Source: a bacterium (GTDB lineage Bacteria; JAHJDO01). From it: 6,135 nucleotides of DNA. A program made the translations under genes and the position numbers. The stretch lies in contig JAUSPT010000057.1 of the NCBI GenBank assembly GCA_030652805.1, positions 1-6,135 of the forward strand. Reading direction: 5' to 3'. Positions 1,880-6,032 of this stretch are shown here, in pieces. Each line of letters opens with the position of its first letter. The first letter of the stretch is position 1. The notes beneath the pieces are model-generated. The model did no database searches. It had not been told where the DNA came from and worked only from the letters and a program-made list of their open reading frames with translations.

Positions 1880-1911
1880 GTGTAAAAATTTAGTAATAAT
1901 GTATAATGCTA
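1880..1911 (+). repeat. Left end of the IS30-family element (two inverted blocks)
   Basis: The outer block GTGTAAAAATT (1880-1890) and the inner block AATGTATAATGCTA (1898-1911) are repeated inverted at the right end. The inner block contains TATAAT (1902-1907) pointing into the element, but no good -35 sits at normal spacing, because 9 bp present at the right end are missing here. Confidence 0.75.
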
Positions 1912-1931
1912 ATTTTGTGGCTGATTTTCCT

Positions 1932-2083
1932 GGATGTCAAGGGCGAGCTTGGCTCGTTTATCAAGGCGCAGCCGATGACCCTTTACATCCATAACGCATA
2001 AATCCTGTTGTTTGCGGGTATATGCACGTGCATATGCCCGCCTGCCTTCCGGCGAGGACAGGGTTCGGGACAGAGTCCTGAGG
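1932..2083. ncRNA. Candidate GC-rich structured RNA inside the IS30 element
   Basis: This stretch is much richer in G and C than its surroundings (33 of 59 bases in 1932-1990) and folds almost completely. Stem 1 pairs 1932-1943 with 1979-1990 (11 of 12 pairs). It encloses hairpin CGAGC-TTG-GCTCG (1944-1956) and small hairpin GGC-GCA-GCC (1965-1973), making a three-way junction. Stem 2 pairs CCTGT (2004-2008) with ACAGG (2058-2062) around a 28-nt near-palindrome (2014-2041) and a hairpin with a TTCC loop (about 2042-2057). A third hairpin pairs 2065-2071 with 2075-2081. No credible ORF was found. On the - strand it would form the 3' part of the transposase transcript; on the + strand it could start from the left-end TATAAT. 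I cannot match it to a named RNA family, and the strand is undecided. Confidence 0.5.
2014..2041. repeat. 28-bp near-perfect palindrome
   Basis: Two 14-base arms centred between 2027 and 2028 pair at 13 positions. The sixth pair (T2019 with G2036) is a wobble in RNA. The core is TGCACGTGCA and the outer arms are GCGGG and CCCGC. It could be the tallest hairpin of the candidate RNA or a DNA binding site for a dimeric protein. Confidence 0.8.
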
Positions 2084-2098
2084 TTTTGACTTTCTTTT

Positions 2099-3166
2099 CT
2101 AAGAAGCTAATAGCAGCATTTCGTTTGCTGTCTTATACCCAAATATTCTTCTTGGATAATTATTTATCCATTCTTCTATAAATTTGATCCGTTTCTTGCT
2201 GATTGACCCTATATCGACACCTTTTGGGATAAAACGCCTGATCAACTTATTCGTGTTCTCATTTGTCCCCCTTTCCCATGAACTATATGGATGAGCATAG
2301 TATATTTTAAACCTTTTCTCTATAGTGTTCTTTACTGACGATTCCATCCCTTTGTAGTTTAAAAACTCACAGCCATTATCTACGGTTACTGTTTTGAAAA
2401 TACTTTTGAATCTTTTTCCGTATTTAAGCTCCAGGTCATTAAGAGCTGCAACAACTGATTCCTGTGTCTTCGAAGGCATCTTAACGATTATCTCTGTTCT
2501 GCACTTTCTTTCACTTAATACCAGTAATGCAGCACCGCTGTCTTTTTTCTTGGTACTCCCTACGACGCAATCCATCTCCCAATGCCCATATACTTCCCTG
2601 TCTTCTATATCCGCCGGTCTCTCTTCTATGCTTGTTCCCTTAAGATTTTTATGCGCAATTGTCACTTTCTTGTAATCCCTTTTTTTGCCTTCCCTTTTAA
2701 CAGGAAGATCATCATTCGTAAGATTCAAGAAAACATCTCCTCTGTCGATGTAGTTATACAATGTTTTTGTGCAAATGGATGTCACAAATGGCGAATTTGC
2801 TGTTCCAAGTCTTCCGATCACAGCATCCGGAGAGAATTTTTCATTTATTATTTTGTTTTCAATGTACTTGACCAGTTTATGATCTTTGCCTATCTTTAAT
2901 CCCGGACCTTTGTTTTTTGAATTTTCTTCATATATTCTTTGTCCTGCATCTGCACAGTATTCGGTCCTATAAGTCAGATCGGAGTTTAACAGCATTATTT
3001 TGCCTTTAATTATCTCTCTTTCAATTGTCCGTGTTGATTTCCCGATTCGTTGACCTATTTCGTGGGCTTTAAGCTTTTCCTTCAACAAAATCTCGATTTT
3101 ATACCTTTCTCTGGCAGTAAAGTGTTTATTCTTTGTTGAATTTGCGATATTATTGTCTTGGCTCAT
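2099..3166 (-). CDS. IS30-family DDE transposase, full length
   Basis: This 355-residue transposase would mobilise the surrounding IS30 element. Residues about 14-55 form the N-terminal helix-turn-helix typical of IS30 (TARERYKIEILLKE, then the recognition segment around GKSTRTIEREI), which binds the terminal repeats. The catalytic core has D199 in HWEMDCVVG, D263 in TVDNGCEF and, most likely, E298 in the hallmark SSWERGTNEN motif, with NKLIRRFIPKG following. Length is typical and the frame is uninterrupted. I chose the ATG at 3166 because a strong AAAGGAG lies six bases before it. The longer frame starting at 3205 would put its ATG inside the promoter -10 box, so it could not be translated from that promoter. 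The 3' side leads into the GC-rich structured segment. Confidence 0.94.
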   Translation of the reverse strand: MSQDNNIANSTKNKHFTARERYKIEILLKEKLKAHEIGQRIGKSTRTIEREIIKGKIMLLNSDLTYRTEYCADAGQRIYEENSKNKGPGLKIGKDHKLVKYIENKIINEKFSPDAVIGRLGTANSPFVTSICTKTLYNYIDRGDVFLNLTNDDLPVKREGKKRDYKKVTIAHKNLKGTSIEERPADIEDREVYGHWEMDCVVGSTKKKDSGAALLVLSERKCRTEIIVKMPSKTQESVVAALNDLELKYGKRFKSIFKTVTVDNGCEFLNYKGMESSVKNTIEKRFKIYYAHPYSSWERGTNENTNKLIRRFIPKGVDIGSISKKRIKFIEEWINNYPRRIFGYKTANEMLLLAS

Positions 3167-3171
3167 GGTAT

Positions 3172-3179
3172 TCTCCTTT
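3172..3179 (-). promoter_or_regulatory. Ribosome binding site fixing the IS30 transposase start
   Basis: On the - strand this reads AAAGGAGA, six bases before the ATG at 3166. It decides for the 355-aa form over the 368-aa upstream extension. Confidence 0.85.
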
Positions 3180-3199
3180 GCAATGTTTTGTTTGACAAC

Positions 3200-3240
3200 T
3201 AACATTATACATTGGATTTACCGTGAGTCAATTTTTACAC
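3200..3240 (-). repeat. Right end of the IS30-family element (two inverted blocks)
   Basis: The outer block 3230-3240 (AATTTTTACAC) and the inner block 3200-3213 are inverted copies of the left-end blocks. The spacing between the blocks is 16 bp here against 7 bp at the left. The transposase promoter is embedded in this end. Confidence 0.75.
3204..3231 (-). promoter_or_regulatory. Promoter of the IS30 transposase, built into the right end
   Basis: On the - strand TTGACT (3231-3226) and TATAAT (3209-3204) are separated by 16 bp, with 5/6 and 6/6 matches to consensus. The -35 overlaps the outer inverted block by two bases and the -10 lies in the inner block, so transposase bound to the end could repress its own promoter. 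Transcription would start near 3197, about 30 bases before the ATG. Confidence 0.8.
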
Positions 3241-3273: not shown

Positions 3274-3284
3274 CACTGCTGAAG
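3274..3284 (+). repeat. Possible left inverted repeat of the DruA-transposase element
   Basis: CACTGCTGAAG matches the complement of 5992-6002 at 10 of 11 positions, with eight perfect inner bases (TGCTGAAG). Beyond it, only scattered matches remain. An 8-bp perfect match between two AT-rich regions could arise by chance. Confidence 0.4.
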
Positions 3285-3478
3285 AATAAACTTTTTTTTC
3301 ATAGTCTGCTGTAATATTTTGCTCTCAAAAAACAACATTACAGAGAAACAATGGTTTTATCTTGAAACCATAACGCATCTTGGCAAAACCTTTTTAGCTA
3401 TACTTTTCGTATAACACTTTTCTTGAAATTTGATATTCTGTATTATTTTTTTCTATCACCCTCTTTCTCCATTGATTT
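3285..3478. other. Non-coding 3' region after the DDE transposase, with three hairpins
   Basis: No gene is visible in these 194 AT-rich bases. Three inverted repeats stand out: CTGTAAT (3309-3315) with ATTACAG (3337-3343), ATGGTTT (3351-3357) with AAACCAT (3365-3371), and TATAC (3399-3403) with GTATA (3409-3413). None is followed by a T tract in the direction of transcription (- strand), so none is a textbook terminator. They may be transposase-binding sites in the element's subterminal region or RNA structure in the 3' leader-less tail. Confidence 0.5.
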
Positions 3479-4921
3479 TCATATTTCGAATCTGTACTGA
3501 TACCTTACGTCAACTTTTTCTTTTATTCGTTCAAAGTCCAGTAGGCATCCGCTGAATATGAGAAATATGAATTCTACGGTTCCCCTGACACCTTTTTTTT
3601 CAACAAGCTGCCTCAACTCTTTAAAATGCATTGTAAGTATATTTATTATATGTCCGACGTGCATAAGATAATGAAAACATTTCATTGCATTCCAATCATA
3701 CGAAAAGCAATGTTCATATGCATATCCATGATGTTTTTCAATAAGATTCTGTGTCTCAATATTCCATCTGGATCGACCTATTGTGTTACATCGTCTGGAG
3801 ACGTTTCTTTCTGTCAGTATTTTGGATGAAAGCCAAGCATATTGTTTCTGTTCATGGATCTCAAGCTTTCCGGTATCCTTGTTCTTTACATATATTGTTT
3901 CTTCGCATATCACCAGGTTCACAAAGATTTGCTTGCGCCTATTGTTTTCGTATCTGTATTCAATATCATTTGCCCAGAAGAAAACCTGTTTTACATTATT
4001 TATCATCTTTCCTTCATTTTTTTCTATACCACTGATTTTCTTTAATCCCTCATAGTCCTCCCATATCGATTTGAGAGAATCACTCTTTAAAGTTATCATA
4101 AAATCCCAGTTGTGCTTTACCAAAATTTCCATAACAGGCCCGTTCGCATAAAGACCGTCAAGCGTGACCGCTATCCCGAGTTTGGGAAAAACACTTTTTA
4201 CCCTTCCGGCAAGCCTTTTAAATGCTTTCAACTCACAATCCTGTTTGAGTTTATCCGAATCATCACACTCAATACTGAATTCGTCCCTATCAAGAAATTC
4301 GCTCATGAACGGTATCGTGACTCCATTTGGGAGAACAATGGATGCCTCGAGTACATATGTGTAGTATTTATATGCATCTTCAGGCATCCCGTGTACATGT
4401 CTCTTAAGGCAGCTATCGCTCCATTCCCATTCTCTTGTGAATTTTCCTGTCCCGTCAAAAGCTATTATATATTTGCCGTTATCTTTGTATCGATCCAGCT
4501 TTTTGCTTGCTATCAGTCTTTTTAAAAGCTCTATTATTGCATCTTCGATTTTATCAGGATCTATTCTTCCAAGCAAACGGGAAAGGGTGTCAGCATGAGG
4601 AAGAGTATCGAGTTCAGGAAAAAACACTTTCATGTTTTCCATCAGTATCCTGCTCATCTTTCTGTTGGCCTGTCTTTTTGATCCCATATGAAACACGAAC
4701 ATCAGTATCCCATAAAGCATGAGCATCGTAAAAGAATGATCTGTTTTTTGTGTATTTCGGGGATCTTCGATCTTCGATAGATCTTTTAGAAGATCCGGAA
4801 GTATTTTCTTGTATACTTTTAATACTTCTGCTCCTGTCTGATGCCTTGCCTCCATCTCCTGTCCTGGATCTTCATAACTACATTTACAGTTCCGGATAAT
4901 TCTTCTGTGCTCTCTGTTCAT
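3479..4921 (-). CDS. IS4-superfamily-like DDE transposase, second gene of the DruA-like operon
   Basis: This 480-residue protein (from the ATG at 4921) has the marks of an RNase H-fold DDE transposase related to IS4/ISAs1. Residues about 41-87 carry an N-terminal EDPRN...GSKRQANR region like the one in these families. Next come D156 (IIAFDGTGKF), D255 (VTLDGLYANG) and E389 in SRWNIETQNLIEKHHG. The last motif fits the IS4 signature R-x3-E-x6-K as R385, E389 and K396, with glycine in place of the usual tyrosine. I cannot name the exact IS family. Its ATG overlaps the TGA of the preceding gene as ATGA, so the two are translationally coupled; a GTG at 4927 is an alternative start two codons earlier. 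A GGTGAG stretch five bases before the ATG can serve as ribosome site. The frame is intact, ending in TGA at 3479. Confidence 0.88.
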   Translation of the reverse strand: MNREHRRIIRNCKCSYEDPGQEMEARHQTGAEVLKVYKKILPDLLKDLSKIEDPRNTQKTDHSFTMLMLYGILMFVFHMGSKRQANRKMSRILMENMKVFFPELDTLPHADTLSRLLGRIDPDKIEDAIIELLKRLIASKKLDRYKDNGKYIIAFDGTGKFTREWEWSDSCLKRHVHGMPEDAYKYYTYVLEASIVLPNGVTIPFMSEFLDRDEFSIECDDSDKLKQDCELKAFKRLAGRVKSVFPKLGIAVTLDGLYANGPVMEILVKHNWDFMITLKSDSLKSIWEDYEGLKKISGIEKNEGKMINNVKQVFFWANDIEYRYENNRRKQIFVNLVICEETIYVKNKDTGKLEIHEQKQYAWLSSKILTERNVSRRCNTIGRSRWNIETQNLIEKHHGYAYEHCFSYDWNAMKCFHYLMHVGHIINILTMHFKELRQLVEKKGVRGTVEFIFLIFSGCLLDFERIKEKVDVRYQYRFEI

Positions 4922-5862
4922 ATACACTCACCGTCCATTTCTTTTTCCCCGGTGAGATATTTTCTGAAATCCTTTTCCAACGGGTACATGTATATCTGCT
5001 TTTGAGACAAAACAGAAGTTGTTTTTGTGCTGTTCCTTCCTCGCCCTGTTGTATTCCCAAGATATGTCCAGTTGGCAGCACGATATGAAACACCCGAGTA
5101 TTTTTCTGAATCTACAAATGTTTCAAGCAACACAGGTGTATGACGGTGTTTTAGCCACCAGTCTTTTTGTATCTTCCTTGCTGCTTGCGAAAGTGAATAG
5201 CTTGCAAGATTTTTGATCTTTACCCAGGGGAATATCAAAAATCTTGTGTTATTGACAATAAGATAAAGTCTGGAAAAACGATCTTCTTTTGTCCATCCTA
5301 TCCACTTATCTCTTTTAGCAAGCGACCACGATGATGCTGAAAACATCATGCATCCTACATATTGAGGATGTTCTCCTCCTGTGGTTATTAAATATTTCAA
5401 CTGGTTTCCAAATGGACTGCCGTATTTGAGTTCGTGATATCGTTCAATATATTCATCCCACAAAACCTCTTTTTCTACTGTGTCTGCAATTTCTACCTTG
5501 ACAGGCATGAATTCGTTGATCACCCCATATATATCTTCTTTAAAATTTGTTTTATCTGTTATCGGGATCTTCTTTTTATGTGATCCGCGATATGTTGGAA
5601 ACGAATTGTTGTCCCATCCTGATGCCTTGTTCTTAGGCGGAAGTTTTATTTCGCCTGCTCTTTCAAGCATTTCTAACCCTTCTTCAATTTTCTTTTCCTT
5701 CTTGGTTAATACTGCGGATGCCCATCTCAAATTCTCACAGATAGTACGGATGAGTTCTTTCCTTGACAATCTTGGATACAGTTTTGATATTTCTTTGATG
5801 CTTGACAGGTCATTGGCTGTCAGGACACGACCATTCACTATATATTGCTCATTGTTATCCAT
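4918..5862 (-). CDS. DruA/DUF4338-family protein, first gene of the transposase operon
   Basis: This 314-residue protein shows the pattern I associate with DUF4338, the family containing DruA of the Druantia anti-phage system, whose biochemical role is unknown. Near the N-terminus, SRKELIRTICENLRW (33-47) is the family's SR-x2-L-x3-C-x4-W segment, followed by a helix ending LERAGEIKLPP (66-76). The core has YHELKYGSPFGNQLKYLI (142-159), RDKWIGW (184-190), NNTRFLIFPWVKIKNLAS (204-221), LLETFVD (245-251), YRAANW (260-265) and LGNTTGRGR (268-276), then YMYPL near the C-terminus. It is intact and has no signal peptide or membrane segment. No Druantia partner, in particular no large DruE helicase, is nearby, and the gene is coupled to a transposase, so a role in transposition is more likely than defence. 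That role is inference. The start is fixed by AAGGAG seven bases before the ATG. Confidence 0.88.
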   Translation of the reverse strand: MDNNEQYIVNGRVLTANDLSSIKEISKLYPRLSRKELIRTICENLRWASAVLTKKEKKIEEGLEMLERAGEIKLPPKNKASGWDNNSFPTYRGSHKKKIPITDKTNFKEDIYGVINEFMPVKVEIADTVEKEVLWDEYIERYHELKYGSPFGNQLKYLITTGGEHPQYVGCMMFSASSWSLAKRDKWIGWTKEDRFSRLYLIVNNTRFLIFPWVKIKNLASYSLSQAARKIQKDWWLKHRHTPVLLETFVDSEKYSGVSYRAANWTYLGNTTGRGRNSTKTTSVLSQKQIYMYPLEKDFRKYLTGEKEMDGECI

Positions 5863-5869
5863 GTATCTG

Positions 5870-5875
5870 CTCCTT
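5870..5875 (-). promoter_or_regulatory. Ribosome binding site of the DruA-like gene
   Basis: On the - strand this reads AAGGAG, seven bases before the ATG at 5862. It is a strong site and supports the chosen start. Confidence 0.85.
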
Positions 5876-5894
5876 GTATAGTTTTACAAATATC

Positions 5895-5923
5895 ATGATA
5901 ACATGGCTTTTTTTTAATGTCCA
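5895..5923 (-). promoter_or_regulatory. Proximal promoter of the DruA-transposase operon
   Basis: On the - strand TGGACA (5923-5918) and TATCAT (5900-5895) are 17 bp apart, each matching consensus at 5 of 6 positions. The spacer contains a run of eight A. Transcription would begin near 5888, giving a leader of about 26 bases with the ribosome site in it. Confidence 0.65.
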
Positions 5924-5988
5924 TAGGTTTGCGAAAAAATATTTTCAGTATACGCTTTAACCCTTTGTTTTTAAGCTATTTGAGAAAT

Positions 5989-6002
5989 GTGCTTCAGCAC
6001 TG
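5989..6002. repeat. Possible right inverted repeat of the DruA-transposase element, overlapping a small hairpin
   Basis: 5992-6002 (CTTCAGCACTG) is the inverted partner of 3274-3284 at 10 of 11 positions. The same bases form a self-complementary GTGC-TTCA-GCAC hairpin at 5989-6000, which the left copy does not have. Confidence 0.4.
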
Positions 6003-6003
6003 G

Positions 6004-6032
6004 ATTATATTATTAAACAGGATATATGTCAA
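6004..6032 (-). promoter_or_regulatory. Perfect consensus promoter reading into the DruA-transposase operon
   Basis: On the - strand TTGACA (6032-6027), a 17-bp spacer and TATAAT (6009-6004) match the sigma-70/sigma-A consensus exactly. Transcription would begin near 5997, inside the proposed right inverted repeat, and run about 135 bases to the DruA-like ATG. It may be a second operon promoter within a longer element, or a host promoter the element landed next to. Confidence 0.8.

Follow-up and report, generated by a model that had tools for sequence, protein, structure and literature searches.

The 6135-base contig analysed here in full, and referred to below as the window, carries what its sequence identifies as an ISAs1-type insertion sequence (approximately positions 3274 to 6002), in which a gene for a predicted Mom-type GNAT protein of the DUF4338 family is coupled to the gene for a DDE transposase. 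This arrangement is found again in numerous relatives of the GNAT gene, several of which have evidently moved together with their transposase in the recent past. The features of the element are as follows.

3274 to 3286, plus strand: probable right end of the element, a degenerate terminal repeat CACTGCTGAAGAA that agrees with the left end at 12 of 16 positions and has two mismatches to the end motif of the group
3479 to 4921, minus strand: ISAs1-type DDE transposase gene (480 aa), with D156-D255-E389 intact
4918 to 4921, minus strand: ATGA in which the stop codon of the DUF4338 gene overlaps the start codon of the transposase gene
4918 to 5862, minus strand: DUF4338 (PF14236) gene for a predicted Mom-like GNAT (314 aa)
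4945 to 5517, minus strand: predicted GNAT core (residues ~116-306) with H143, R184-D185, R207, S221, E247, Y260 and K288, matching Mom (8bv8)
5629 to 5841, minus strand: predicted N-terminal helical, winged-helix-like region (residues ~8-78; model pLDDT 77.9, best winged-helix match Z 5.4)
5895 to 5923, minus strand: promoter-like site TGGACA-17-TATCAT, upstream of the DUF4338 gene and inside the element, found only by consensus scan
5989 to 6002, minus strand: left end of the element, terminal repeat CAGTGCTGAAGCAC, with no mismatches to the ISAs1-group end motif of relatives

Both open reading frames were confirmed, as was the overlap described in an earlier note on this DNA: the minus strand around position 4921 reads GGT GAG TGT ATA TGA ACA, so that the DUF4338 gene ends and the transposase gene begins within one ATGA at 4921-4918 (a mechanical reading of the transposase frame opens at GTG 4927, the coupled start being the ATG at 4921). 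The 314-aa protein matches PF14236 over residues 105-276 with 139 bits (cut-off 27, E 2e-40), a match that spans only positions 34-222 of the 297 in the profile. Its partner matches PF13808 with 40.2 bits, above the cut-off of 32.3, and its D156, D255 and E389 are invariant among its relatives; against the NCBIfam ISAs1 equivalog it scores 13.5 bits, far under the cut-off of 70, which is cleared with 177 bits by a fused relative (L072). The left terminal repeat, identified with the ISAs1-group end motif CAGNNCTGANGCA that was derived from relatives of the window element, lies 140 bp upstream of the DUF4338 ATG, a spacing that is the same in these relatives. Between this ISAs1-type end at 6002 and its degenerate partner at 3274, the element measures ~2.7 kb and has both genes inside, which supports the earlier proposal of a single mobile unit. 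The promoter-like site at 5923-5895 (10/12 in the consensus scan) also falls within these ends. The element occurs only once in its genome, and this copy may be old, perhaps immobile, since no target duplication is visible around it in the window.

The remainder of the window deserves brief mention. The contig consists nearly entirely of three consecutive insertion sequences. An IS66-type element at 68-1823 has perfect 19-bp terminal repeats (TGTTACAGTTCAGATGTAG) and a sole transposase gene at 289-1764, without the small TnpA/TnpB genes, and an IS30-type element at ~1880-3238 has its transposase gene at 2099-3205 on the minus strand and inverted repeats near 1898-1914 and 3197-3213. Just beyond the left end of the DUF4338 element, a perfect consensus promoter (TTGACA-17-TATAAT; 6004-6032, minus strand) points into it.

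The pairing recurs widely. In a sample of 385 whole genomes that were not chosen by similarity to the window, PF14236 was found in 23 and came in two types, a long one of ~400 aa that resembles Druantia DruA and a short one of ~300 aa found beside or inside transposases. When neighbourhoods were fetched and partners scanned, the short type proved to be present in 15 genomes of this sample, 13 of which had at least one transposase pair (a second genome sample overlapped almost totally with the first and is not counted as independent). Public genome contigs, scanned with a narrow alignment, yielded at least 584 relatives, and the 80 loci retained from these are the ones nearest to the window and thus a biased set. 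All loci together contain 130 distinct short domains. Of these, 80 either form a fusion with a DDE transposase or have one no more than 700 bp away on the same strand, and four fusions recognised later (L050, L052, L205 and L211) bring the total to at least 84. According to Pfam and NCBIfam the partners belong to seven families, namely ISAs1, IS66, IS4 (two groups, one of which is Tn5-like), IS701, ISKra4 and IS1634. Transposase density is 0.138 per kb within ~2.6 kb of the DUF4338 gene as opposed to 0.016 per kb beyond, where transposases are about nine times rarer. The coupling seen in the window is also common, with a 4-bp overlap in 30 of 60 separate pairs, the DUF4338 gene coming first in 18 and the transposase in 12. 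Roughly one relative in three lacks a recognised transposase alongside; some of these are at contig ends and several have remnant ends. Relatives of the window transposase occur in only four genomes of the sample, too few to count elements without the enzyme. The window protein had no match in phage records by tblastn, and only two plasmid records matched it.

That the DUF4338 gene or domain belongs to what moves, so that the pair travels as a single element, follows from the sequences of multi-copy relatives, in which exact ends and perfect target duplications enclose it; the earlier note had proposed to look for shared borders of this kind among independent copies. In one Desulfoferrobacter genome there are four identical 1927-bp DUF4338-ISAs1 fusion elements (L204-L207), each with its own perfect 10-bp target duplication (AGAAATACCG, CAGGGAATAG, GAATCTATTG and AGTTCAATGT). 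An IS4-type fusion is present in three copies on an Arenicellales chromosome, two of them with perfect 10-bp duplications, and a Tn5-like fusion in five copies in one genome of the sample (L037-L041), with duplications of 9-10 bp. Separate pairs have behaved in the same manner: perfect 8-bp duplications surround three IS66-DUF4338 pairs (L106, L133 and L042) and 9-10 bp duplications surround two ISAs1 pairs (L099 and L082). Two side observations concern these mobile fusions. A clear preference of target is evident from the five Tn5-like copies, whose insertion site is the loop of a repeated hairpin (CCCTCACCCCCTTTAATTCCCCCTCTCCCG...). In some DUF4338-ISAs1 fusions the reading frame changes at a single-base run, A7 or C6 after T runs (L205 ~4714, L070 ~2329, L006 ~5242), which splits them, and since the four identical, recently moved copies have the frame change in common, this suggests programmed frameshifting or slippage.

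An idea of what the 314-aa protein might do came from its predicted 3D structure. The earlier note had considered a nuclease or a DNA-binding fold, and the AlphaFold2 model (computed from 15 sequences; pLDDT 84.7) points elsewhere: no nuclease fold was seen in it, and GNAT matches occupy the core. The top match among solved structures is Mom of phage Mu, in the form of the inactive mutant S124A (8bv8; Foldseek E 9e-7), and alignment of the model with this structure by VIA-align gave Z 15.3 with an rmsd of 3.8 over 170 residues, as compared with at most 12.5 for other GNATs. The N-terminal region is modelled as three helices and a hairpin that look like a winged helix, with winged-helix matches that are weak, also when the region is searched alone; DNA binding is not claimed for it. 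This region is missing from ISAs1 fusions that have the catalytic core. At the level of sequence, a search of solved structures with the 314-aa protein found no relative, and it scores 17.9 bits against the Pfam Mom model (PF25680), below the cut-off of 27.1; that model is nonetheless matched by 41 of 53 relatives at E ≤0.1 (best 8e-6). Comparing profiles against Mom alone gave a weak signal (P 0.004 and 0.009), which a larger alignment did not improve.

In a profile alignment, the KHYS, NSES, SFADER and VYQASNF motifs of Mu Mom pair with YHYLG, NLAS, TFVDSE and SYRAANW, and S124 of Mom, the residue mutated in inactive 8bv8, aligns with S221. Among 110 IS-linked sequences, H143, R184, W190 and R207 are invariant, while E247 is found in 109, S221 in 108 and Y260 in 107. 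The Tyr beside the His in Mom (E144 in the window protein) and the Asp of SFADER are not strictly retained. The best reading of the sequence and the model is that the 314-aa protein is a catalytically intact Mom-type GNAT, which would be an active enzyme. DUF4338 has been stated earlier to be a GNAT domain (PMC10853773), and what is new here is the specific likeness of its IS-linked members to Mom.

These results bear on the name that the protein would receive by family membership. The earlier note treated it as DruA, known from Druantia, and remarked on the lack of a DruE helicase, which is borne out over the whole 6135-base contig. However, a tree of 118 sequences places 110 IS-linked rows apart from eight DruA-type rows (three of which come from plasmid loci L190-L192 with a large DEAD/DEAH helicase nearby), with starred branches of 3.9 and 3.05 between them. 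All eight DruA-type proteins have W, V and G where the IS-linked proteins have H143, R207 and S221, and E247 is also replaced, in an alignment that can be trusted around the R-D-x-x-I-G-W motif and is less secure in other parts; none of them matches the Mom model. Membership of the 314-aa protein in Druantia is ruled out by its place in a separate deep clade and by the H, R and S at the diagnostic positions, and the label 'DruA' is misleading for it. The suggestion that Druantia recruited DruA from a mobile element finds no support in these data, the tree having no usable root and its clades being joined by very long branches. Long DruA-type proteins were also seen in other company, one (L057 2739-5049) adjoining a NurA-like protein (a weak match, below the cut-off) and one (L063 1702-5085) adjoining a HerA-type ATPase, which are perhaps another defence arrangement.

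DUF4338 genes that stand alone have a place in this picture as well. In the tree they nest among ISAs1-linked rows, and the partner label has to change at least 13 times across it. Desulfobacteria have a group of such genes, intact and sharing 58-91% identity with L087, that lie near ISAs1-linked ones in the tree; some members of the group have remnant ends (both at L087, the left at L089 and the right at L086). Stand-alone copies with such ends look like elements that have lost the transposase and retained the enzyme gene. Two DUF4338-only units are flanked by terminal repeats (L087 2726-3863, 1138 bp; L129 3034-4088, 1055 bp) and are possibly mobilised by a transposase located elsewhere. Separately, two 450-aa DUF4338 proteins (L046 3930-5282 and L210 3664-5022) are extended at the N-terminus by a stretch that matches nothing in Pfam, and no transposase adjoins them.

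Comparison with known systems shows in which respects the window element resembles them and where it departs from each. With Mom of phage Mu, which modifies DNA adenine, the 314-aa protein shares the predicted GNAT fold, the motifs including the serine linked to inactivation, and carriage by a transposing element; it differs in lying under the Pfam cut-off, in its additional N-terminal region and in having relatives coupled or fused to IS transposases, and DNA modification would apply to it by analogy. It shares with Druantia DruA the Pfam family, the R-D-x-x-I-G-W motif, Y260, G269 and G273, whereas the missing DruE, the deep separation in the tree, the four replaced residues and the lack of a Mom match in DruA set the two apart. 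The element is like ISAs1 in its PF13808 transposase, DDE residues and CAG..CTGA.GCA ends, and its relatives in their 9-10 bp target duplications, but is unlike it in its low NCBIfam score and in the ~2.7 kb that include a second gene. A second gene coupled to the transposase is also known from IS21 (IstB) and IS66 (TnpA/TnpB). IstB is an ATPase and TnpA/TnpB are small proteins of other kinds, whereas the accessory protein predicted here is a GNAT, common to seven transposase families. No earlier report of a DUF4338/DruA-transposase association was found in the open-access papers searched (subscription papers and ISfinder being outside the scope), nor in the papers searched was any role found for an enzyme of DNA-modifying type in the movement of bacterial insertion sequences.

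How might such an enzyme serve an insertion sequence? The earlier suggestion that DUF4338 acts in transposition stands as far as the protein being made with a transposase, in transposition units of seven families, and its exact role there is something that we infer. We give an even chance to the reading that it is a transposition accessory GNAT, adopted repeatedly by many insertion sequences, which would work together with the transposase, either on the DNA of the element itself or on the target. The N-terminal winged-helix-like region, or a fused transposase, would place the GNAT at the ends, the intermediate or the target, where it would attach an acyl-type group to a base, much as Mom acts on adenine, and this mark might label or protect the ends of the element, its excised intermediate or the newly made copy. 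The simplest reading would be that all these proteins carry out one enzymatic reaction on a substrate they have in common, DNA, because the catalytic set is strongly constrained whether the gene is coupled, fused or on its own, and the transposases it is paired with are of different kinds. A bolder version, in which insertion sequences with transposases of at least seven families draw on an interchangeable Mom-type enzyme to hypermodify bases of their own or target DNA during transposition, the chemical mark being part of the mechanism, is held tentatively, as a possibility that we rate below even. GNATs mostly acylate proteins or small molecules, and for this reason DNA as the substrate would be an analogy with Mom.

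This same point opens the way to a different reading, in which the GNAT acylates a protein, for example its partner transposase or some host factor, and thereby regulates transposition. Amine-modifying GNATs of proteins and small molecules are indeed numerous among the structural matches, and coupling or fusion would position the GNAT beside the transposase. This is nevertheless unlikely, since Mom stands well above the other GNATs (Z 15.3 vs at most 12.5) and has the catalytic serine in common, and a substrate site shared by seven differing transposase families is hard to imagine. Low probability is likewise attached to the idea that the GNAT scaffold is a non-catalytic subunit for DNA binding or target choice: the winged-helix-like region and the fused Tn5-like copies of one genome, all in the loop of one repeated hairpin, would fit it, but the retention of H143, R184, R207, S221, E247 and Y260 in 107-110 of 110 sequences, fusions and stand-alones included, would not, and ISAs1 fusions drop the N-terminal region while retaining the catalytic core.

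The gene might instead be a passenger that serves the cell or the element outside transposition, for example in anti-restriction or phage defence, and merely travels with insertion sequences. Intact stand-alone copies persist in Desulfobacteria after loss of the transposase, as a passenger might, and Mu Mom is described as shielding DNA from restriction (PMC6483171). Repeated fusion to transposases and the 4-bp overlap in half of the pairs favour joint action instead, and we regard a passenger as quite improbable. Ordinary passenger genes are seldom fused to a transposase. As for an accident, i.e. a fragment of Druantia that happens to lie beside an unrelated insertion sequence, the three insertion sequences in a row and the lack of a visible target duplication in the window are what one might see in such a case, but recurrence within exact, shared element borders, the overlap coupling and the place of the protein among IS-linked members in the tree refute it, leaving it a negligible chance.

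The finding of predicted Mom-type enzymes linked to insertion sequences has several consequences. Pfam would at present be hiding them under the name of a phage-defence protein, and some of the proteins annotated as 'Druantia DruA / DUF4338' belong to insertion sequences, so that tallies of defence systems are affected. DruA itself gains a structural and evolutionary reference point. Finally, should the domain act in the manner of Mom, modification of bases would be a general part of transposition, and this is testable with multi-copy elements that already exist.
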